IMG/VR virus record: IMGVR_UViG_3300005096_000018
Location: 1-37,686 of that record
DNA length: 37,686 nucleotides
Source of the DNA: a virus
Strand: one strand, 5' to 3'
The translations under genes and the position numbers were made by a program. Positions 1 to 37,686 of the stretch are shown here, piece after piece (position 1 is the first letter of the stretch; every line of letters begins with the position of its first letter). Below the pieces are notes generated by a model. It searched no databases. It saw only the letters and a list, made by a program, of their open reading frames with translations, and was not told the DNA's origin.

Positions 1-91
1 CAGCTATCCCTGAAATATTATGCCATTCTCCAACAGTTAATGCCGTCCCTCCTTTTGCCTCTACCAGCGTACCTCCATTTACATAAATTCT
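1..91. repeat. Terminal direct repeat (copy 1), circularisation overlap
   Basis: Bases 1-91 are identical to 37596-37686. The LamG gene is open and in frame through the join, so this is best read as the overlap left when a circular (or circularly permuted) genome is assembled, not as two biological copies. A true 91-bp terminal repeat is less likely but cannot be excluded from sequence alone. Confidence 0.95.
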
Positions 92-810: not shown

Positions 811-2739
811 TTAAATTCCTGTATAAGAAAACTCTACACCAATAACTTCCCTGTCTCCAGTCGCTGTATCGTTTGTCGCGTCATCTGCGTCTGTGCTTAG
901 CCATATCCAGACCATATCTCCGGCAGCGCAAGAATCATCTGTTAATGTAATGCTTATGACGTCCTGATATCCTGCGGTTCCCGGAACGGTCGCATTTCCT
1001 GCAACGCAATTAGCGAAAGAAGCTGTGCCGACATCAGCGGCATCAGCATCGCTTACACACATAATCGCCGCCTCATATTCAACGGTTCCAGACGTTGCTG
1101 ACGCCATTGAATAATGTACTTTCAAAACCGGCGTTGATGAATAATTGTCAGGCATAACAAACTGCCAAACTGCGGCTTCGTCTGCTACTGCGCTATCTGC
1201 TTCTAACAGTAGCCTCCAATTTCCGTCGCCCGCGTCTATAGCTGCACTTGTAGAAGCTGTCGTTGAACACCCAGCAGGCGTCATTGTTACAAAAGAGCCT
1301 GTCAATTTAGCAGACTGAACTGGCAAAGTTAAATTTGTTCGTGATGTTCCTCCGCCTCCACCGTCACCCTGTAAAGCCCATGTATCGGTTGATTCACAGG
1401 CATAAATTCTTTGTCCGCTTGTTGCGTCTGTGTCCATATATATTTGACCTACTGTACATGTGGCAGGCAAAGATGTTGAATTAGGAACTTCTACAGAAGC
1501 CCCGCCAAAATCATAAGTCCCGGTTCCGACATCGCCAGTATTTAACAGGAAAGAATCATCAACATTTAAAGTATTTGTGGCTAAAGTTATATTCGTGCCT
1601 GCGACCAATGCTGTTTTTGATACATCAATAGCCGCACTCGCATTAATATCCGCATTGACAATAACCCCGGCATTAATATTTGCGGTAACAGTATTTGAAG
1701 TGTCGACAAAGTCAATGTCCCCGGTGCTTACAAAGTCAGGGTCTACAACCGCCGCCCCGTCAATCGATATTGAGTCAGCCCCGCTTGCCGCTGTTCCGTC
1801 TCCGGCAATAACCCAATTAGTTCCGTCATCAACACAAACATTCACCGTTGACCCTCCGCCTGTTGTGCAGTCATTATCAGCGTTTCCGTCGGTTACAACA
1901 GCTATTCTTCCAACGGTTCCTGCTGCAGGTAAAGATGCAATAGTCCCGTTATCAATCTCTATCGTTGCTCCGCCAAAGTCATAAGCTCCTGTGCCTACGT
2001 CACCGGTATTAGACAAAAACGCATCATCAACATTACAGACACCGCCAGAACATGTTAGATTCGTTCCACCTGCCCCATTAATCTCCTGCTGGACAAATGC
2101 CGTTGTGGCTATGGCTGTTGTGTTTGTGTCGGCCGCGGCTGTTGTTGATAGTGAGGCCGTTAAAGTGTCTGACACCTCATTGTCCGCCCATGGATTAGCA
2201 GTATTTACCCAGTTCCCTGTTATGGTCTCATTGCCGGCTAAATTAAGCGTTGTATCTGTCGTATGCGCTCCGGCGTAAAATTCGTTTGTCCCTGTACCGT
2301 CTCCAACCTGCAATCTCTCTGTTGTCCGATCAAATTTAATTTGTCCATCTGTTGTTGGGGCGGCCCCATTGCCATCGAGCAATTTAAATACACAGTCTCC
2401 TGTATCGCTACAAGTAGGTGCCCCAGAAGTATAATCTTGTATAATTTTTCCAGTGGTTCCGTCAAAGCGCACTATAGCGTTATCAACAGAAGCCGCGGGG
2501 CCAGAAACATCGCCGCCACCTCCAAGCCCTGTTGTCAATGTATATGTACCGTCTCCATTATCAGCTAAAGCGCCGTTAGTAACTTTAATTTTCCCGCAAA
2601 CAGGGCTTGATGGATCGCCGTCAATTTCTTCCATAGTAATACATTTGTCAAACTTGCCTGTAAATGGATTAAATGTTTGTCCAGCAAAAGCCTGCGCGTT
2701 TAAAAATAATAAAAAAAATAAAATTTTAATATATTTCAT
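811..2739 (-). CDS. Long repetitive tail fibre-like protein with Sec signal peptide
   Basis: 642 residues with low-complexity, Thr/Ala/Asp/Gly-rich beta-type sequence typical of phage tail fibres. It begins with a signal peptide (MKYIKILFFLLFLNAQAFA). At least two copies of a module of about 60-80 residues are visible, marked by NTGDVGTGxYDFGGAxxE followed by SLPAxxTVGxI. The C-terminal 150 residues differ and may form a tip or knob domain. The SD AGGGG lies upstream. It is the largest gene of the distal tail group. A Sec signal on a fibre is unusual, because virion proteins normally assemble in the cytoplasm. Confidence 0.8.
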   Translation of the reverse strand: MKYIKILFFLLFLNAQAFAGQTFNPFTGKFDKCITMEEIDGDPSSPVCGKIKVTNGALADNGDGTYTLTTGLGGGGDVSGPAASVDNAIVRFDGTTGKIIQDYTSGAPTCSDTGDCVFKLLDGNGAAPTTDGQIKFDRTTERLQVGDGTGTNEFYAGAHTTDTTLNLAGNETITGNWVNTANPWADNEVSDTLTASLSTTAAADTNTTAIATTAFVQQEINGAGGTNLTCSGGVCNVDDAFLSNTGDVGTGAYDFGGATIEIDNGTIASLPAAGTVGRIAVVTDGNADNDCTTGGGSTVNVCVDDGTNWVIAGDGTAASGADSISIDGAAVVDPDFVSTGDIDFVDTSNTVTANINAGVIVNADINASAAIDVSKTALVAGTNITLATNTLNVDDSFLLNTGDVGTGTYDFGGASVEVPNSTSLPATCTVGQIYMDTDATSGQRIYACESTDTWALQGDGGGGGTSRTNLTLPVQSAKLTGSFVTMTPAGCSTTASTSAAIDAGDGNWRLLLEADSAVADEAAVWQFVMPDNYSSTPVLKVHYSMASATSGTVEYEAAIMCVSDADAADVGTASFANCVAGNATVPGTAGYQDVISITLTDDSCAAGDMVWIWLSTDADDATNDTATGDREVIGVEFSYTGI

Positions 2740-10592: not shown

Positions 10593-11509
10593 TAAATTGT
10601 ATCCCTTGAATAAGCGGTATAATTAATTTCGTCAACACGGTTTGGATTATTAAAGGCGTTCCACGTGAAACGCTTTAATGTTTTTTCATATATTCTTTCG
10701 TATTCTCTTGCTTTTGCAAATTGTCTTTTATAAAGCCATGCCTTCCATGTTCCCCCTTCTTCAAGAACATTTGAGCAATCAATAACCGGGGTGTCGTAAT
10801 CACTAACTAATGGAGCAGGCCTTAATATATACGGCATTTTAATTGTATAAGCCGCGTTTGGAGTCTCATGAAATCTTATAACTTTAATTTTATAATCTTT
10901 AATTGCCGGGGCTAAAATCGCATTTGTAATTGCTCCACTATTTGAAGTAATTGTAATCTTTCCTGTAGTAGTCGCAGATTTTGAGATCGCGTAAATTGAA
11001 GAAAACGAATTTGTTGTAACTGTTGCGGTTGTTCCTGTTAACGTAACATCTTCGCTCATTTCAACAGAATTAGATATTCCTCTAATATGAACTACTTGCG
11101 TTGAATCAGATGATGATGATGAAACAATGCTTAATACAGATGCCGATGTCGGCTGTTTGCTTACCTGCTTATCAATAATTGTATATCTACCAATAGTTCC
11201 TTGAGAGCTTAAAGTCGAAGAAAAATCTTCTGCTAATTTTTCAAATGCGATAAAAGGATAATCTTTTAAATTTGTTGCGTCATAAACATATAATTCTTTG
11301 CTAAAATTGCTAGGCAAATCATAATCTTTTGTGCCCGCGATTGTCGAAAAAGAATAATCATCATCGATTGATTTAAAATTAATTTCATCTAATAATTCAA
11401 AATAAATATTATTTACATAATTTTTAATGTTAGTTTGCATTGAGGAAGATGAGTCCTGAATGTTTGTGCCTATATTTGATACGATATCAACAAAAAGTTT
11501 ATTCCGCAT
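10592..11509 (-). CDS. Head-tail adaptor/tail tubular A-like protein
   Basis: 305 residues. The opening (VDIVSNIGTNIQ...YVNNIYFELLDE) and later SFSTIAGTKDYDLPSNFSKEL are characteristic of adaptor proteins that bind under the portal (P22 gp4/T7 gp11 group). A Ser/Thr-rich insertion (about residues 115-205) looks like an added Ig-like domain. The C-terminal segment (WKAWLYKRQFAKAREYERIYEK) is the usual helical part. It overlaps the end of the glycosyltransferase gene by 11 nt. Confidence 0.7.
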   Translation of the reverse strand: MRNKLFVDIVSNIGTNIQDSSSSMQTNIKNYVNNIYFELLDEINFKSIDDDYSFSTIAGTKDYDLPSNFSKELYVYDATNLKDYPFIAFEKLAEDFSSTLSSQGTIGRYTIIDKQVSKQPTSASVLSIVSSSSSDSTQVVHIRGISNSVEMSEDVTLTGTTATVTTNSFSSIYAISKSATTTGKITITSNSGAITNAILAPAIKDYKIKVIRFHETPNAAYTIKMPYILRPAPLVSDYDTPVIDCSNVLEEGGTWKAWLYKRQFAKAREYERIYEKTLKRFTWNAFNNPNRVDEINYTAYSRDTI

Positions 11510-14387
11510 GTGCTATTGCCCCCAAAAACGCCCATTGTCCTTCTGAGTATTTTGTAATTTCAATGTTTCGCCATCCCGCGCTTTGAATATCCTTTTTTAA
11601 AGTCTCTTTAGTATAATATCTATGATGGTATAAATGCTCGTAATTATCTTTATTATAAATTTCTAATGCTTCAGGGTTTGCTTGTTTGGCGTGAGTTTTA
11701 GAATCAATATTCCCCTGCTCTTCTAACGTTTTTGATATTTTTTGAAACGGCTTTAGCATATCAGCCCACTCCTGTTCATATGGAACAGTTACAATAAGCT
11801 TGTTTGACACCCTTAATGCTTCTGACAATACCTCAACTGGCTCCGGGACATGCTCGCAAATTTCTCCTAAAACTGAAATTTCAAATTCTTTATTTTTAAA
11901 CGGAAGTTTTTTAGCGTCAGATTGAACGAAATTTTCGACATCATATAAATCAATATCGACAGTTGTAATATTTTTGCGATTACATCCTTCGAATATTAAC
12001 CCTTTATTGCCTCCAATATCTACAATTTTTTTATTTAAATCGCAATTGCTTTTAATCCATTCATATCTTGAACCAACCAAAACTCTTTTTTCAATTGATG
12101 TGAATAATTTTTCACTCCATTCTTTAGCTACTCTATGCCAAGAAAAATCACACGAAACAGATAATACTTCATTTCTAAGAGCCTCTTGCCTTTCGGTATT
12201 ATTTAAAATGTCAATAAGCGAAGCTTTAAATGCTTCCAATGTTTTTTGATCAGACGCCGATCCTTGTATTTTAATACCGGATTTTACTGTTTCTTTTAAC
12301 GCCGCTAAGTCTGTAGTTATCGGCACACAACCGCAGGCCTGCGCCTTCATTGCTGAAATGCAGGAAATCTCAGTAAAATGAGATGGATATGCGTATATTC
12401 CTGATTGTTTAAATTCATTAATTAATTCTTTGTGCCCAACTCTTCCATGCTCAAACACACCTTCTTGATTCATTAAAGCCACTAAATCAGCTTTTTCTTT
12501 TTCTCCCCTAACGCCTTGCTTAACCATTGCGTCATACGTATTCCACCCATAAAACAAATGCAGCTCAGCTTCTGGGGACTGCTCTTTAATTTCAGGCCAG
12601 ATTTTAAGCAGATGTTCAACACCCCTGTCATAGCTTGAAGTGTATATAATTCTTTTCGGATTTCTTTTAATGCCATTGCTTTTAAAATCTTCAATATTAA
12701 TCCCATTAGTAGTTACAAAAACTTTGTTTTTATTAATATGTTCTGGAAGCAATGACTTATGGTATTCAGAAAGCACTAATATTTTATCAAAAGTTCTGTC
12801 TTCACCTTTTTTAAACATTCCATTTATTGGAACGTCATGCAGCCAAACTATTTTTTTTCTTGCTTTCACTATACCGTTTTTAAAAACATTTCCGCGCCAT
12901 GATATAAAAATATTAAAATTGTCTTTAATGTTAAATTTTTTAACATCTAAATATTCTACTCCATCATATTTTCCTTCTAAGCCCTGGCAAGAATTATAAA
13001 CAGTAACCGCATATCCTAATTTGACAAATTCTTTTGATAAATAAATAACCGCCTCTTCACTTCCTCCTATTCCGGTATCAACGCTTTTAGGCGACCAATT
13101 TTCCCAAGATCCTCCACAAAAAAATACTATATGATTGCCGGGAAAAGTTTTTTCTTTTGTTAAATGCGCCTTTAATCCCGCAATTTGCTGATTATCTGTT
13201 TTATCTGTAATAACCATTGGAATATTATTAACTTTATCCGGATCTACCTCTTCAAGATATTTTTTTATCCAAATCAAATTTTTTAAATAATTTTTTTCTA
13301 ACTGGATTTTGTCAAGTAATTTTGCGTGGGTATCAATAAATTGATTATCGGGGCACATTTTTTTTGCTTGATCAATGAGCGCTTTTGCCTTATCAATATC
13401 ACCTTTTCCAAAATATGCCATTGAAAGGTTTGTTGCGGCTTTATATGTATATGTGGAAGGGTCAAGGACATATAAAGTATCAGGCTTTGGCTTTGATACC
13501 CCTATGTTCCCCCAATGAATGGCCTTATCAAATTCTTGCTTTTCAACATAAATTTCACACAAAGAAAGATACGCGTCAGGATATTCTGTTTTTATCGTGA
13601 AGGCTTCATTGCAGGCGGATATTGCGTCTTCTAAGCGTCCCAATTGCAGAAAACAATGAGATATCTGGACATATGCGAAATATTTATCTTCATCCCATCC
13701 AGACTTATTTATAAATATATTTAAAAATGTAATTGCTTTGCCCCATTGTCCAATCCCCATAAGCATTCTACCGATATATGCGATCGTTCTTGGATCGGCG
13801 TTCTCCCCGTCTCTATTAAATTCATCTAAAAGAATTTTAATATTTCTTTCTGATGATTTTTCCGCGTGTTTTTCGTCTACATTATGGATAATTCTAATTC
13901 TGTTATCTTTTATTCCTTTAAATTTATTTTTATCATTTATAAAAATATTTTCGTGGACAGCTTTTTTCCAATAACAATTTGGCGTTTTTCGTATAAATGT
14001 CTCTCTCCAATGCTCGGCTATACAATTGCCATTTGCGTCTTTTGCATAAATATAAGGAGTGTACACAATATCAATATTTTCATTTACCATATATTCCAAA
14101 ATTTTGTTTATGTTTTCAGGCGATTCTATAATATCGTCGGTATCAATTCTAACATAATAAGGCTCATCAATTTGCTCTGCTAAAAAGTTTCTTTTATGCG
14201 AAAAATCATTAATCCAATTATATTTTATTAACCTAACTCCAGTTCTTCCGTCAAACATTTCTTCAAATTTATCAAAATGATTGTCAACAGCGAAATAAAT
14301 AGTATTAAAATATCCTGCGTATTTATTTGCTATTTTTTCACATAATTTTAATTCATCTTTTACAATAACAGCTAAAGCTAATCGCAT
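11499..14387 (-). CDS. Four-module glycosyltransferase (GT-A + TPR + GT-B) fused to SAM methyltransferase
   Basis: 962 residues. Module 1 (about 1-200) is a GT-A/GT2-like domain, starting LALAVIVKDE with the metal-binding motif RIDTDD. Module 2 (about 205-365) contains TPR repeats (ISHCFLQLGRLEDAISACNE). Module 3 (about 420-740) is a GT-B/GT4-like domain (GGSEEAVIYLSKEFVKLG; FTEISCISAMKAQACGC), but the second Glu of the usual E-x7-E motif is Lys. Module 4 (about 750-962) is a class I SAM methyltransferase (IVDIGGNKG; DAKKLPFKNKEFEISV). SD GAGGAG precedes the ATG. Lying between capsid and adaptor genes, it probably builds and methylates a glycan on virion or host surface material. Target and sugar are unknown. 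Confidence 0.85.
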   Translation of the reverse strand: MRLALAVIVKDELKLCEKIANKYAGYFNTIYFAVDNHFDKFEEMFDGRTGVRLIKYNWINDFSHKRNFLAEQIDEPYYVRIDTDDIIESPENINKILEYMVNENIDIVYTPYIYAKDANGNCIAEHWRETFIRKTPNCYWKKAVHENIFINDKNKFKGIKDNRIRIIHNVDEKHAEKSSERNIKILLDEFNRDGENADPRTIAYIGRMLMGIGQWGKAITFLNIFINKSGWDEDKYFAYVQISHCFLQLGRLEDAISACNEAFTIKTEYPDAYLSLCEIYVEKQEFDKAIHWGNIGVSKPKPDTLYVLDPSTYTYKAATNLSMAYFGKGDIDKAKALIDQAKKMCPDNQFIDTHAKLLDKIQLEKNYLKNLIWIKKYLEEVDPDKVNNIPMVITDKTDNQQIAGLKAHLTKEKTFPGNHIVFFCGGSWENWSPKSVDTGIGGSEEAVIYLSKEFVKLGYAVTVYNSCQGLEGKYDGVEYLDVKKFNIKDNFNIFISWRGNVFKNGIVKARKKIVWLHDVPINGMFKKGEDRTFDKILVLSEYHKSLLPEHINKNKVFVTTNGINIEDFKSNGIKRNPKRIIYTSSYDRGVEHLLKIWPEIKEQSPEAELHLFYGWNTYDAMVKQGVRGEKEKADLVALMNQEGVFEHGRVGHKELINEFKQSGIYAYPSHFTEISCISAMKAQACGCVPITTDLAALKETVKSGIKIQGSASDQKTLEAFKASLIDILNNTERQEALRNEVLSVSCDFSWHRVAKEWSEKLFTSIEKRVLVGSRYEWIKSNCDLNKKIVDIGGNKGLIFEGCNRKNITTVDIDLYDVENFVQSDAKKLPFKNKEFEISVLGEICEHVPEPVEVLSEALRVSNKLIVTVPYEQEWADMLKPFQKISKTLEEQGNIDSKTHAKQANPEALEIYNKDNYEHLYHHRYYTKETLKKDIQSAGWRNIEITKYSEGQWAFLGAIAHAE

Positions 14388-20855: not shown

Positions 20856-22307
20856 TTAATATTCTATACCATAACAGGCTTTTTGTCTAAAAAAAACATC
20901 ATTTTGCTCTTTTTTTTCAACAGTATCAACAAAACGAACCCCAGGAGTTAATATCTGTTCTGCATAACACATTGAATCCACAATATCGTCCCATCTGCTG
21001 CTTCCTATTTCTAAAAGCTCTTCACGGGCTTCAATATGAGCTACATTTATAAAATATTTGCCCTGTTCAAATAATGGTTGCAATGCAGCGACTATTCTAT
21101 CAGATTTTCTTCTTTTAGTTACCCCTGACACAGTAGTATAAACGTTTTTAAGCTCCTTAAACGGTACTCCAAGACCTCTTTCCATGGCTTTTTCAGTGCT
21201 TTTATTAAAAAAATCAATCTCGCGCCCTCCAGGAACGCCTACTGCTGTAATAATGCCTTTATTACGCACATACATATTTAAATACTGATCGATAAAATCT
21301 CCTTGCGGTGCGTGTGTTCTGATATAATCAATTAAATATCTGTTATTATTAACATCAATTCCTACTAATACCGCTACCTTATAGTCAGCCTGATCATGAT
21401 CTTTATACGCCGGGTCTATAGCCATAACGGCGGCCATTTGTGCCGGCAATTCAGTCCAATACTTTATCATTTCGTCTTTAAGCGGACTGGCCTCATCAGC
21501 CTTTGGGTCATTCATATATTCATTCGCAAATGCTGTAGTGCCTATTGTAGCTTTACGTTCCTGTAGCCATTCATGTGTCCTTGCTTGCGGCCATAACTCA
21601 TTTCCAGCCTTCTGTTCTTCCCCTACATACGCTCTATATCTTCGTTTTATCCATTTATTTGGCATATTTAAAAGATCATTAAGTAGGCTCAACTGATGTA
21701 AAATTGTTCCTATTAAAAGCATCTGCCCGCCCGGCAATAAAGTGTTTAAGCAGGCTTTAAATAGCCAATTCTTTAACTTTTTTCTTTGCTCTTCGCTAAC
21801 CACGCCTTCATCTGTCTCTATATCATCTAAAATTATACAATCAGGCCTAAATCCACGAATCTGTCCGCCTGCACCTTTTGCCCTTAAATTTATCAATGTA
21901 TTGTCAGGATGCTTTATCATTAAATGATTTTCAGTCCATTTATCACTCTTTAAATCCCCCCATCCAGCCAATACATAAGGACTGCTCTCTAAAGACATTT
22001 TTATATATCTCATATGCTCAACAGCTAACGTCTCACTCGCTGAAATTATACAAATATCTGTTCTTTTTTTAAACAACGCAAGCCATAAAGGATATACCTT
22101 TGCTACAATAGAACTTTTCGCAAATCCTCTAGGCGCGGCTAACGCCAGTAACTCTTCTTTCATAATTAAATCATAAATCTCATAATGAAATAACGGCATT
22201 TCGTTTGTTACTAAATCTTTGCATACAACTTTAGCAAACGTACTGATATCCTCTTCCATGGAAACATATATTTCTTTATACCGCTCTTTGTCATCAGACT
22301 TAATCAT
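20856..22307 (-). CDS. terL: Terminase large subunit (packaging ATPase/nuclease)
   Basis: 483 residues. Walker A-type loop APRGFAKSS (58-66), Walker B CIILDDIE (157-164) and the coupling region GTILHQLSLL (about 200-209) mark the ATPase. The RNase H-like nuclease begins MAIDPAYKDHD (first acidic residue D298) and ends near WDDIVDSMCYAEQ. It powers DNA packaging and cuts concatemers. The ATG overlaps the upstream small gene by 8 nt. Length and domain order are normal. Confidence 0.92.
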   Translation of the reverse strand: MIKSDDKERYKEIYVSMEEDISTFAKVVCKDLVTNEMPLFHYEIYDLIMKEELLALAAPRGFAKSSIVAKVYPLWLALFKKRTDICIISASETLAVEHMRYIKMSLESSPYVLAGWGDLKSDKWTENHLMIKHPDNTLINLRAKGAGGQIRGFRPDCIILDDIETDEGVVSEEQRKKLKNWLFKACLNTLLPGGQMLLIGTILHQLSLLNDLLNMPNKWIKRRYRAYVGEEQKAGNELWPQARTHEWLQERKATIGTTAFANEYMNDPKADEASPLKDEMIKYWTELPAQMAAVMAIDPAYKDHDQADYKVAVLVGIDVNNNRYLIDYIRTHAPQGDFIDQYLNMYVRNKGIITAVGVPGGREIDFFNKSTEKAMERGLGVPFKELKNVYTTVSGVTKRRKSDRIVAALQPLFEQGKYFINVAHIEAREELLEIGSSRWDDIVDSMCYAEQILTPGVRFVDTVEKKEQNDVFFRQKACYGIEY

Positions 22308-22461
22308 CGCTTACCTGTGTTATTAATATCTTGAATTTAACTTTTCCTTTCTTTGTTACTTCATACAGCCCGTCCTGTAAATAAGCATAAATACATCTTG
22401 TAAATTCTCTTAAATTTACTCTTATTGGAACGTCAAATACTGTTTGCTCTTCTTGTTTCAT
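22300..22461 (-). CDS. 53-residue protein coupled to terminase
   Basis: Open frame starting MKQEEQTVFD and ending VSDD, overlapping the terL start by 8 nt, which favours coupled translation. It contains one Cys and a beta-like C-terminus (KKGKVKFKILIT). No good SD is visible, so the call rests on length, overlap and composition. Function unknown. Confidence 0.5.
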   Translation of the reverse strand: MKQEEQTVFDVPIRVNLREFTRCIYAYLQDGLYEVTKKGKVKFKILITQVSDD

Positions 22462-22549
22462 TGTTTTGTCATGTCAAAAGCTGGGGGTTGTGGGTTTTAG
22501 TGGGGGGGGTATATGTCTATCTAAAGTGCCCCAGGGGCCCTTAACCCTC

Positions 22550-22578
22550 TTACATAAAACGTTACACATACTTGTAAT
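22550..22578 (+). promoter_or_regulatory. Possible promoter for the CRISPR-like repeat RNA
   Basis: TTACAT, a 17-nt spacer and TGTAAT resemble a sigma70 promoter pointing at the single CRISPR-like repeat 25 nt downstream. The match is modest and no transcript is known, so this is tentative. Confidence 0.3.
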
Positions 22579-22603
22579 AATTAATCGGCATCTGGACAAT
22601 ATC

Positions 22604-22635
22604 GTCGCCCATCGTGCAGGAGCGTGGATTGAAAC
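22604..22635 (+). CRISPR. Solitary type I-C-like CRISPR repeat (no array)
   Basis: A single 32-nt unit, the exact length of type I-C repeats. It starts GTCGCCC and ends GTGGATTGAAAC, the conserved 3' end of I-C repeats. The stem is imperfect (CGC/GCG with a mismatch). No second copy is found within a spacer distance and no cas genes are present. A small hairpin (CGCTA/TAGCG) follows at once. Its antisense translation gives the well-known spurious peptide VSIHAPAR. Phages are known to carry solitary repeat units that act as RNA anti-CRISPRs by diverting Cas proteins; that role is inferred here. Confidence 0.7.
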
Positions 22636-22667
22636 AAACGCTAACAATAAAATAGCGCAACCATCCA

Positions 22668-23375
22668 TCAACGCTTATCATTACTTAAGCTCCCGACGAC
22701 GCTATCACATCTCCCCGACGCTACAGTTAAGCGATCATTACTGTCACCACTAACGTCACCGTTACCGCTCTCTACTCTAATACTACGCAACTGATCAATA
22801 ACAGCCTTTGGCCGCTTAACGTCCTCAAGTTTTAAATTTTCATTTTGAAAAACTTGAAAAATCGCAATGTTGCCTGCTGTAGACTTATCTCTAAACATCC
22901 CACGCTCTTTGCCAAGCAATTCATTCGCCCTAATCTTGTCCGAATCCTTAGCATTCTCGTCGAGAGCAATTTTTTTTAAATTATTTTCAATCCACGTCGG
23001 GGTAATTAAATCCTGCTGCTTATATCTCGCCGTCTCCTCAAGAATAATCGCCTTAATATTAGCCGACCGCTTAAGTCTTGACGCAGTAACGCAACAATTA
23101 TTATCAGCATAACCAGCAGATCGAGCCGCAGCAGTTGCCTTATTACCATTACGTACGTAATAATGTACGTATAAATTTTGCAAATTAGAGAGTCCTTTAT
23201 AACGATGCACTTCCTCCGGCAGGTCGTCATTAATCGCTGCCCGGATATTATCATCTAACTGCTTCTGCTGCTTAGACTTAGCAATCTCTTCTTTTTTTTT
23301 AATCGCGGCTAACTGCTGAGCCCTAATAAGGTCACGCTTAGCCTGTCCGGACATGTCACGTTTTCTGATCGTCAT
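22668..23375 (-). CDS. terS: Terminase small subunit
   Basis: 235 residues. A basic, Gln/Lys-rich helical N-terminus precedes the DNA-binding core LYVHYYVRNGNKATAAARSAGY, the classic helix-turn-helix of phage terminase small subunits (substitution of GNATQAAIRAGYS-like motifs). The C-terminal 50 residues are low-complexity and come from DNA with internal repeats (22671-22770). It recognises the packaging site and loads TerL. It is the first gene of the late leftward block. Confidence 0.8.
   Translation of the reverse strand: MTIRKRDMSGQAKRDLIRAQQLAAIKKKEEIAKSKQQKQLDDNIRAAINDDLPEEVHRYKGLSNLQNLYVHYYVRNGNKATAAARSAGYADNNCCVTASRLKRSANIKAIILEETARYKQQDLITPTWIENNLKKIALDENAKDSDKIRANELLGKERGMFRDKSTAGNIAIFQVFQNENLKLEDVKRPKAVIDQLRSIRVESGNGDVSGDSNDRLTVASGRCDSVVGSLSNDKR
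22671..22770. repeat. Short repeats in the 3' end of the terminase small gene; candidate packaging site
   Basis: On the plus strand ATCATTACT occurs twice (about 22677 and 22735), TTAAGC twice, CGACGCTA twice and GTCACC twice within 100 bp. Packaging sites (pac/cos) often lie in or next to the small-subunit gene and contain short iterated binding sites. A nearby run of eight G (22502-22509) is also unusual. No cleavage site can be read from sequence alone. Confidence 0.35.
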
Positions 23376-23627: not shown

Positions 23628-23655
23628 TTGACATATGTACAATACATGCTATACT
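23628..23655 (+). promoter_or_regulatory. Strong rightward early promoter with internal inverted repeat
   Basis: TTGACA (23628-23633), 16-nt spacer, TATACT (23650-23655). Between the boxes lies ATGTA-CAA-TACAT (23636-23648), a perfect 5-bp inverted repeat that could be an operator. The start region TTAGGTGAGAGA (23660-23671) is shared with the second early promoter at 24096. Confidence 0.8.
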
Positions 23656-27170: not shown

Positions 27171-27359
27171 ATGAAAAAACTTAAAAATTGTCCTTTTTGT
27201 GGACAAGATTGCGAAATCCAATATGCTGGATACGACCCAATTAAACAAACACCATTTGTTTTTATATCCTGTTCCGGCTGTTTTGCCTCTAGTTTTAATT
27301 ATTTCCAAACAAAAAAAGACGCTATAGAGGCGTGGAATAAAAGAATAAATGACAATTAA
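27171..27359 (+). CDS. Lar-like zinc-ribbon protein
   Basis: 62 residues. CPFCGQDC near the N-terminus, ISCSGCFAS in the middle and DAIEAWNKR at the end define the Lar (restriction alleviation) small zinc-ribbon family found next to recombination genes. Lar of Rac prophage modulates type I restriction; whether this homologue does is unknown. Confidence 0.75.
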   Translation: MKKLKNCPFCGQDCEIQYAGYDPIKQTPFVFISCSGCFASSFNYFQTKKDAIEAWNKRINDN

Positions 27360-27738
27360 ATTTATAAGTCCTATTTATATAATTTTACCACGAAAAACTA
27401 AAAAAGACAAAAAGATTGCGTTAAATCTTAATGTTTACAGAAATCTGCATTTTCAAATAAATAATCAGATGAAAGAAAAATATAATCAAATCATGTCTGA
27501 ACAATTAAATGGCAAAGTGTTTGATGTTATTAAAAATATAGAATTTGTGCTGTATAAGCCAAGTAGGCGTAAAATTGACAGATCAAATATTTTGTGCATT
27601 GTCGAAAAGTTTTTTTGTGACGCTTTGGTAAATTGCGGGTGCATTAAAGATGATGACGATAATTATATTAAATCAACAGCATATCGCACTGACGGGATTG
27701 ATATAAAAAATCCTAGATGTGAAATTTTTATTAGGTAG
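27349..27738 (+). CDS. RusA-like Holliday junction resolvase
   Basis: 129 residues. RRKIDRSNILCIVEKFFCDAL and GCIKDDDDNYI match the acidic D..N...KxxxDAL and DDD metal-binding blocks of RusA. It resolves recombination intermediates before packaging. It overlaps the Lar-like gene by 11 nt. Confidence 0.75.
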   Translation: MTIKFISPIYIILPRKTKKDKKIALNLNVYRNLHFQINNQMKEKYNQIMSEQLNGKVFDVIKNIEFVLYKPSRRKIDRSNILCIVEKFFCDALVNCGCIKDDDDNYIKSTAYRTDGIDIKNPRCEIFIR

Positions 27739-29228: not shown

Positions 29229-29546
29229 TTAACACACTCCTTTCATTATGCTCTTTATTGACTCCGGCATTCTGCAAAACTTGTTTTTATCTGCTTCGAC
29301 TTGAGTTTTCTTCGCAAAATAATCTTGTGATTTCATTTCTAAAACTTTCATAAAATATGGCCAAGGTTTCTTGATGTTGTCTATGTTGCTCAAAATATTT
29401 TTACACACCTCTAACTTAACCTCCTCAGGAATTGCATAAATTGTTTTTCTTTCTTTCCTGATTTTTGCGAGCTTGTTTAATAGCATGGAAATATTGAAGC
29501 CTTTTGCGTGGATTTGTTTAAGAAGATTGTTAAGCTCTTGATTCAT
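29229..29546 (-). CDS. Hypothetical helical protein
   Basis: 105 residues, basic and helical. IPEEVKLEVCKNILSN and KKPWPYFMKVLEMKSQDYFAKK recall the C-terminal helical part of phage replication initiator-like proteins, but the match is loose. Its start overlaps the stop of the DUF3326 gene by 4 nt, so it may belong to the same transcript. Confidence 0.55.
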   Translation of the reverse strand: MNQELNNLLKQIHAKGFNISMLLNKLAKIRKERKTIYAIPEEVKLEVCKNILSNIDNIKKPWPYFMKVLEMKSQDYFAKKTQVEADKNKFCRMPESIKSIMKGVC

Positions 29547-30538
29547 AATTTAATTATTTTTGTTTTTTCAATAGGCCTTTTAATCGAGTTTAAAGAGACT
29601 CCTGATTTTTTTGCAGAAATAACCCCGCAGACCTCAAGATAATTATTAACAACTATAAAATCTTTTGGCATATCTTGGTTTATAACTGTTTTATTCTCTT
29701 GCACGGCTATGACAGGAATATTATTTTTTAAACAAGCATGATGTGGACGCCCAATAATATTCGCAGGAGTTATTAAAAAATCAATATCTGTATTCCAAAA
29801 AGCATTTTTAAACATTGAAATTTTAGGCGAAACATGCGCCCCCTTTATACAACAATGAATATAACAAACAGAAACAAGTTCTGCCGCTTTTCTAGGATCA
29901 ACAATTTCATTGAATGCTTTGAAAACTTCGCTATTTTCAATAGGCGCATGAATCACTGGCTTATTAAGTTTTTCAGACGCTAATTTTGACAATTTCGCCT
30001 CAACACCTCCCCATATATTAACCCCGCCACACGATGTTAAATAATTTTTTACTTCTTCATCATCTGTTTCTATAGGAGTATTTATAATAAGTACATTAAA
30101 ATCATATTCTAACACCTGTTCAATCATTTCATCTAGGTTGTATATTTCACCCGTAGCTTTCCCATGGTTTAATCTTGCAATCATTCTCAATTTATTCTTT
30201 AATTCGATAATTTCAATATCCGCGCCTAAAACAGCCCTCGCTCCAGAAATAGCATTCACGGTTTCGTTTTTTACAGGGGCATTGACTGCGACTAGAATTT
30301 TGTTCATATGAACTTCTTCGAGTCCTATTTGGCCTTCAAGAAATCTGTCAAGAATTGATCCTTCGACATATAACATATTTTCTGTCATTTCATTTAGATC
30401 GGAAGCGTTTACTACATTTGGATGTATAAATAATTTATCACATAGAGAAGAAATCATTTTTGCGTATGGGGTCGCATCGCCTGAATGCCCACCTATCTCT
30501 GCCCCTACCCCTGTCGGCACAATAAAAACAACATTCAT
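29543..30538 (-). CDS. DUF3326 family protein
   Basis: 331 residues. IVPTGVGAEIGGHSGDATPYAK, HPNVVNASDLNEM, NMLYVEGSI, NIWGGVEAKL, VDPRKAAELVSVCYIHC and IPVIAVQENKT follow in order and match the DUF3326 family, known from cyanobacteria, chloroplast-bearing eukaryotes and some other bacteria. The function of the family is not established. Length is near full size. The SD AAGGAG lies in the last codons of the speD-like gene, one nt before it, so the two are translated together. A phage copy is unusual. Confidence 0.85.
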   Translation of the reverse strand: MNVVFIVPTGVGAEIGGHSGDATPYAKMISSLCDKLFIHPNVVNASDLNEMTENMLYVEGSILDRFLEGQIGLEEVHMNKILVAVNAPVKNETVNAISGARAVLGADIEIIELKNKLRMIARLNHGKATGEIYNLDEMIEQVLEYDFNVLIINTPIETDDEEVKNYLTSCGGVNIWGGVEAKLSKLASEKLNKPVIHAPIENSEVFKAFNEIVDPRKAAELVSVCYIHCCIKGAHVSPKISMFKNAFWNTDIDFLITPANIIGRPHHACLKNNIPVIAVQENKTVINQDMPKDFIVVNNYLEVCGVISAKKSGVSLNSIKRPIEKTKIIKL

Positions 30539-30539
30539 T

Positions 30540-30917
30540 TTATATTCTCCTTAAAATTTTATAATTCACGACATTACCTCCAAACCATTCTTTTGTGAAA
30601 TTTAATGTTTTTTTAACGCAAAACTCCTTGCATGAAAATATGTTAATATAGACGCACCCCAATTCATCAAGAGTGTGAATCGTTATGTTGCTTGTTTTAA
30701 TAAATTGTACCGCGGAAGTTCCTTTTAAATGCTTCGGAGCTTTTTCATATGCCTCTAAATCATTTTTATAATCCCACCAAAATAAATTTTCCCTCTGCAT
30801 ATCTATTAATTCACACAATTCTTTAAAATATTTCCTTATTGATTTACGAGTAAACGCAGAATTGTCGCAATTATGTAAATCGATTATCAGCTCTTTACCA
30901 AAATTCTTATCTCTCAT
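30540..30917 (-). CDS. speD: SpeD-like pyruvoyl S-adenosylmethionine decarboxylase
   Basis: 125 residues, class 1B size. S68, S76, H81 and C96 have exactly the spacing of the catalytic Ser55, Ser63, His68 and Cys83 of the Thermotoga enzyme (8, 5 and 15 residues apart). S76 would self-cleave to give the pyruvoyl group. The flanking ESH is TSN here and HTWPE is HTLDE, so substrate use may differ; some SpeD paralogues are known to decarboxylate ornithine or arginine. No spermidine synthase is in the genome. SD AAAGGTAG. Tightly coupled to DUF3326. Confidence 0.78.
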   Translation of the reverse strand: MRDKNFGKELIIDLHNCDNSAFTRKSIRKYFKELCELIDMQRENLFWWDYKNDLEAYEKAPKHLKGTSAVQFIKTSNITIHTLDELGCVYINIFSCKEFCVKKTLNFTKEWFGGNVVNYKILRRI

Positions 30918-37191: not shown

Positions 37192-37686
37192 TTAAGGATA
37201 TGATAAAACTTCTTCAGCCTTTGCTGTTAACCCCGTATTGTTTGCCCCGTCATCTCCTGTACCGTCGTTTCCGTTTCCGCTTCTATCTTTAAAAGTATCT
37301 GTATCGCCGCTTGTCCCGTCGGGCTGGTCATCTAATGGCCAATAACCCTTTAGATTAGCTGGCTGTATTTGTAGAGGCATTCCTTTTATTTTTGATGATG
37401 CTAATAATTTAATTTCATCACTTGTAAGTTTAATGTTCCAATATGCAAAATCAGTTACTGCGCAGTGCGCGCCAGGTAGTATTTGTAAATTATTAGCATT
37501 ATCTAAATCAATAGCGCCACTAAATCCAGTTATAGCTGCTTGTTGTACGCCATCAACATAAATCCGCACTTCAGCCAAATCTGTAGTTCCATCGCCAGCT
37601 ATCCCTGAAATATTATGCCATTCTCCAACAGTTAATGCCGTCCCTCCTTTTGCCTCTACCAGCGTACCTCCATTTACATAAATTCT
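37192..37686 (-). CDS. LamG/concanavalin-fold exported protein, C-terminal part (continues at 1)
   Basis: C-terminal 135 codons of the protein that starts at 331; the last 91 nt of this interval repeat bases 1-91. AEVRIYVDGVQQAAITG, LQILPGAHCAVTDFAYWNIKLT and KGYWPLDDQ are classic LamG strands. The final part is Gly/Asp/Asn-rich (KDRSGNGNDGTGDDG), often a calcium-binding or end-of-domain segment. Joined length is 244 residues. Confidence 0.85.
   Translation of the reverse strand, partial: RIYVNGGTLVEAKGGTALTVGEWHNISGIAGDGTTDLAEVRIYVDGVQQAAITGFSGAIDLDNANNLQILPGAHCAVTDFAYWNIKLTSDEIKLLASSKIKGMPLQIQPANLKGYWPLDDQPDGTSGDTDTFKDRSGNGNDGTGDDGANNTGLTAKAEEVLSYP
37596..37686. repeat. Terminal direct repeat (copy 2), circularisation overlap
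   Basis: Identical to bases 1-91; see the first entry. Bases 37595 and 1 are adjacent in the circular genome. Confidence 0.95.

Follow-up and report, generated by a model that had tools for sequence, protein, structure and literature searches.

Solitary CRISPR repeats can be RNA anti-CRISPRs (Racrs). A Racr is expected to be made as a small RNA from an immediately upstream promoter, in a host whose CRISPR-Cas system is of the same subtype. RacrIF1 binds Cas6f and Cas7f, and its stem-loop is required: changes in the stem-loop abolish its inhibition (PMC10651486). RacrIC1 is a type I-C solitary repeat, for which inhibition of I-C CRISPR was demonstrated experimentally (PMC10651486). In type I-C systems, Cas5d recognizes the hairpin of the repeat together with the 3′ single strand, and its cut leaves an 11-nt 5′ handle (PMC5965380, PMC3890593).

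We analyzed a viral DNA of 37,686 nucleotides (IMG/VR record IMGVR_UViG_3300005096_000018, hereafter the window). The original prediction, made from the letters of the window, described a solitary type I-C-like repeat with a degenerate stem and proposed it as a candidate Racr. Here we compare this unit with array repeats, with viral solitary repeats and with the described Racrs.

Genome and terminase region

The ends of the window (1-91 and 37596-37686) are identical over 91 bp. The virus genome is therefore probably complete and circularly closed; it measures 37.6 kb and has a GC content of 36%. The phage is unclassified. Its terL has one close relative in IMG/VR (L002, 59%), and the portal, capsid and glycosyltransferase homologues of this relative are in the same order. 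The closest portal among the phage records comes from Manatee Spring metagenomes.

The unit had been placed between the terminase genes. More exactly, it lies in the gap that separates terS from the small ORF preceding terL (Table 1). Two ORFs, on either strand, cross this gap. Their codon scores were negative, whereas those of real genes were positive.

Table 1. Features around the repeat unit (coordinates of the window)
Feature	Coordinates	Strand	Basis
Terminase large subunit gene (terL)	20856..22307	-	phrog_38, E 1.2e-85
53-aa ORF overlapping the terL start, no family	22300..22461	-	ORF and profile scans
Noncoding gap of 206 bp, from terS to the small ORF before terL	22462..22667		ORFs and codon scores
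Extended -10-like TGtAATAAT, sole upstream promoter hint	22573..22581	+	By eye; best 12-position score 8, as in the antisense control
Solitary type I-C-like CRISPR repeat unit	22604..22635	+	30/32 versus the Paenibacillus sp. 598K array repeat; unit position 6 T>C, 8 C>A
5′ stem arm, mismatched at 22609 and 22611	22606..22612	+	Canonical pairs 6-18 and 8-16 broken (C.A, A.G)
24-nt core equal to the host-type repeat (from the end of the 5′ arm through the loop and the 3′ arm to the 3′ handle)	22612..22635	+	blastn-short 24/24, 48.1 bits
Expected Cas5d cut site (unit G21/U22 junction), if processed	22624..22625	+	11-nt 5′ handle rule (PMC5965380, PMC3890593) placed on the unit
Small hairpin CGCTA-9-TAGCG following the unit; no T-run	22638..22656	+	Folding; no terminator by scan
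Terminase small subunit gene (terS)	22668..23375	-	phrog_51, E 1.5e-14

The terminase gaps of both phages (22462-22667 in the window and 7366-7800 in L002) contain a run of eight or more C residues beside CATATA or TATATG. This C-tract is possibly part of a packaging site. Short matches between the two gaps, including CTGTACCATGGGCGA, were at chance level and were set aside. Two further loci of the window were recorded. Inside the structural gene block (11499-14387, minus strand), a protein of 962 aa combines TPR, glycosyltransferase and methyltransferase domains, and its homologue in L002 shows 51% identity. At 29543-30917 (minus strand), a DUF3326 protein adjoins an S-adenosylmethionine decarboxylase-like protein, which is unusual phage cargo; the DUF3326 protein had no match among the phage or plasmid collections.

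Identity of the repeat unit and its source

The 32-mer at 22604-22635 (plus strand) is GTCGCCCATCGTGCAGGAGCGTGGATTGAAAC. A single exact occurrence of GTGGATTGAAAC was found, with zero mismatches. Against the 127 distinct I-C repeats collected, the unit scored 30/32, while the remaining genome and eight simulated genomes gave 21-22. Within 200 bp of the unit, no second or partial repeat was detected (best flank score, 16/32), and Rfam gave no match across the 2.5 kb around it. No convincing cas gene was found among some three dozen ORFs compared with PHROGs, Pfam or PADLOC. An ORF with weak Cas6 matches (27349-27738) was rejected because it is a RusA-like resolvase (E 2.9e-25). These results bear out the original prediction of a solitary I-C-like repeat without cas genes.

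The last 22 bases of the unit were used for a scan of 84,980 genomes, and only three Paenibacillus species matched. The arrays of Paenibacillus sp. 598K contain dozens of copies of GTCGCTCCTCGTGCAGGAGCGTGGATTGAAAC. The unit is identical to this repeat at 30/32 positions, including all of the last 24. Near-identical repeats are thus present in real arrays, which supports the original prediction on this point. Repeats with three or fewer mismatches were found in 10 of 400 Paenibacillus-family genomes, and the CCCA stem arm of the unit was absent among the first places listed for each of those genomes.

In the 10 Paenibacillaceae genomes with similar repeats, no spacer matched the phage; only the repeats themselves matched. 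Furthermore, the GC content of the phage (36%) differs from that at the loci of the three named Paenibacillus species (48-54%), which disfavors a Paenibacillus host. With neither a spacer link in these 10 genomes nor matching GC, Paenibacillus was rejected as the host. The unit was probably taken from a host. The source type of the repeat is known, but no link of the phage to Paenibacillus was found. No I-C-like repeat occurs anywhere in the records of the terL relative (L002/G401) or of a capsid relative (L140).

To count as a solitary repeat unit (SRU), a sequence must be intergenic, match a known CRISPR repeat with at least 90% identity and have no neighboring repeat within 100 bp. The unit shows 93.8% identity (30/32) to the array repeat, has no repeat within 100 bp and lies in a 206-bp gap whose ORFs score as noncoding. 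Judging from its sequence, the unit is a genuine phage-borne solitary I-C repeat, the class that gives rise to RNA anti-CRISPRs, with the qualification that its local blastn-short alignment covers 24/32 nt (75%) only, so that the published pipeline, which demands 90% coverage for a full match (PMC10651486), might call it partial.

Transcription signals

By scan, neither a sigma-70 promoter nor an intrinsic terminator was found within 22300-23000. A weak promoter had been proposed for the unit; however, the best upstream score was 8/12, no better than the antisense control. The hairpin after the unit, also noted in the original prediction, is real, but it is not an intrinsic terminator because it has no T-run. 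The unit is flanked on both sides by minus-strand genes. At 23628, 1 kb downstream of the unit, a strong promoter on the plus strand (TTGACA-16-TATACT with TG) precedes the rightward genes. No viral contig matched the 18-mer upstream of the unit. Across 81 solitary viral repeats, promoter scores were slightly enriched upstream (7.44 versus 7.16 in the control), and this difference was not usable.

Viral solitary I-C repeats keep the stem

Solitary I-C repeats are common in IMG/VR (contigs L008-L126): full I-C repeats were found in more than 100 viral stretches, and many of them are solitary. For comparison with the unit, the frame GTCGC-N13-GCGTGGATTGAAA was used to select viral contigs (at least 119 stretches), and the solitary repeats were retained, 71 of which are distinct. 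The variable stem pairs 6-18, 7-17 and 8-16 are all intact in 64 of these; 5 repeats retain two pairs and 2 retain one. The mean was 2.87 of three pairs, as compared with 2.05 when the 3′ letters were reshuffled (maximum 2.21 in 500). Since the variable pairs are seen as G-C, C-G, T-A and A-T, the stem is kept by compensation. The compensation may have been passed on from host arrays, where it is also seen. Thus, viral solitary I-C repeats usually keep the hairpin and are not degenerate as a rule, and the statement that the stem of the unit is degenerate as in known mimics is wrong.

Among the solitary viral repeats whose flanking genes share one direction, 18 are in sense and 10 in antisense orientation. 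One repeat of this kind, GTCGCTCCTCGTGCAGGAGCGTGGATTGAAAT, is solitary at 1980-2010 (minus strand) of L017 (IMGVR_UViG_3300031867_000107). Its stem is intact, it is one base off the Paenibacillus repeat, and a TATAAT-like sequence is present upstream. By sequence, the L017 unit is a better Racr candidate than the unit at 22604-22635.

The stem of the unit is broken

T6>C and C8>A are the only differences between the unit and the host repeat. Each affects the 5′ arm and disrupts the stem. The unit keeps one of the three variable stem pairs. The energy of its canonical stem is +0.6 kcal/mol, whereas the median of the viral solitary repeats is -12.5, and all 71 are stronger. Thus, the hairpin that a Racr keeps for binding of its cognate endonuclease (Cas5d in I-C) is broken at two of the three variable pairs in the unit, and is the weakest in the comparison.

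The predicted fold of the unit shifts to CCA/UGG pairing, in which the expected Cas5d cut site is paired (U22 paired, P = 0.76). The same cut-site-hiding fold was obtained from 25% of all double mutants and 46% of the 5′-arm double mutants. Since nearly half of the 5′-arm double changes give it, the shifted fold is no evidence of design, and a designed hiding of the cut site was rejected.

Discussion

On the best reading, the unit is a weak Cas5d decoy or a relic in decay. We tentatively favor a captured SRU kept as a Racr-like RNA decoy of uncertain strength. In this model, the phage or its ancestor would have taken the unit from a type I-C array with the repeat GTCGCTCCTCGTGCAGGAGCGTGGATTGAAAC/T. 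A short plus-strand RNA containing the unit would bind Cas5d via the hairpin and the 3′ handle. Without a proper crRNA around the unit, such an RNA would tie up Cas5d and Cas7 in dead complexes, as Racrs do, and so inhibit interference. The identity with real arrays at 30/32, against an expected 21-22, and the perfect 24 nt at the 3′ side are consistent with a decoy, as are the intergenic position and the solitude of the unit in a complete, compact genome without a detected cas gene. So are the more than 100 viral stretches with full I-C repeats, many of them solitary and with stem pairs kept by compensation, and the experimental inhibition of I-C CRISPR by RacrIC1 (PMC10651486). In contrast, each of the 71 viral solitary repeats has a stronger canonical stem than the unit. 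RacrIF1 loses its activity when the stem-loop is changed (PMC10651486), and Cas5d needs the hairpin as well as the 3′ single strand (PMC3890593). Moreover, no promoter exceeds the control, plus-strand transcription would be antisense to the terminase operon, the terL relative has no unit, and no spacer match was found in the 10 Paenibacillaceae genomes. Because the hairpin is broken in the present unit, decoy activity against hosts with ordinary repeats is probably weak or already lost. The original prediction of a Racr candidate holds as to the class, a phage solitary I-C repeat, but not as to the hairpin, and its promoter is at control level.

The main alternative is a relic, that is, a captured solitary repeat that no longer functions and drifts in a tolerated noncoding gap. 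Two changes that break the stem, a canonical stem weaker than any other in the set, the control-level promoter and the absence of the unit from L002/G401 all fit this reading, and the stem is intact in the close array repeats listed for Paenibacillaceae. On the other hand, the first 5 nucleotides and a run of 24 others are unaltered, so that the unit has few changes for an element in decay. The chance that two random changes both fall in the first 8 nt is about 6% (8/32 squared). Since the unit keeps the 3′ handle and the 3′ arm but not the full stem, we place the decoy first, at somewhat less than even chances, and regard the relic as almost as probable. The orientation of the repeat and its intact 5′ handle would also suit a crippled mini-array or a crRNA-like guide, in which the repeat and the next ~34 nt target another virus or, like CreR/CreA, a cas promoter; such guides exist (PMC6858448, PMC12948488). 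This is unlikely. A mini-array has two or more repeats around a virus-targeting spacer, and neither a second repeat nor a target was found here, so that a mini-array was rejected. Neither the window nor the examined Paenibacillus array loci contained a TTC-flanked target for the downstream 34 nt, which also had no match in 50,697 phage records. The single match in IMG/VR (L167) ends after 21 nt and lies inside an ORF without TTC; we judged it to be chance.

Two further explanations place the role of the unit in the DNA or on the minus strand. The CRISPR likeness may act as DNA, either as a landing site that recombines with host arrays or as part of a packaging site. The position between the terminase genes and the C-tract shared by the two gaps would fit such a role, and other repeat-like sequences can mediate array integration (discussed in PMC10651486). 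However, no integrase was found among the proteins scanned, and packaging does not need the repeat because the gap of L002 is without it; we consider this explanation slightly less probable still than a guide. Alternatively, the minus-strand unit in the terminase mRNA could be an antisense sponge, complementary to every crRNA handle of a matching system. Minus-strand transcription is expected from the operon. The duplex with the host repeat RNA is calculated at -59.5 kcal/mol, the hairpin of the minus strand itself is weakened from -12.6 to -6.3, and its predicted fold leaves UCAAUCCAC, the handle complement, unpaired (z -2.3). Nevertheless, this fold is modestly better than shuffles (5/200 as good), the terminase genes are late and probably too late to block interference, and no precedent was found. 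A sponge is thus the least probable of the explanations. A variant in which the stem-breaking changes were selected because they make the minus-strand unit accessible for pairing, or, in a milder form, in which the refolded hairpin of a decoy hides the cut site so that the RNA is bound yet unprocessed, is a model to which we give a small chance.

If the unit is active, the ordinary repeat hairpin would not be essential to an RNA anti-CRISPR. This would bear on Cas5d trapping, and searches that now require intact stems would be broadened. If it is a relic, it records the capture and decay of a CRISPR repeat in phages. Stem compensation in solitary viral I-C repeats offers a simple sequence test for live versus dead solitary repeats. 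The unit is an added example of the viral solitary repeat units, short of a demonstrated Racr.

The array repeat of Paenibacillus sp. 598K and P. oryzae (type I-C-like) has 30/32 bases in common with the unit, the last 24 being identical. It is iterated in arrays with spacers, whereas the phage unit is single and has no GC or spacer link to the genus. Virus-borne mini-CRISPR arrays (PMC6858448) resemble the unit in that a CRISPR repeat is carried on a virus without cas genes, and differ in the second repeat and the recognized target, which the unit lacks. RacrIC1, from a Bifidobacterium pseudocatenulatum prophage (PMC10651486), is like the unit a phage type I-C solitary repeat outside arrays and without cas. 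It lies next to acrIC5, is co-transcribed with the acr gene and was tested, whereas no acr neighbor was recognized for the unit, no promoter above control precedes it and its stem is broken. In viral type I-C solitary repeats (the SRUFinder set of PMC10651486 and those recovered here), the hairpin is nearly always kept through compensatory changes, whereas it is broken in the unit at 22604-22635; these repeats and the unit are alike in being full-length (32 nt), solitary and, often in the former, intergenic.
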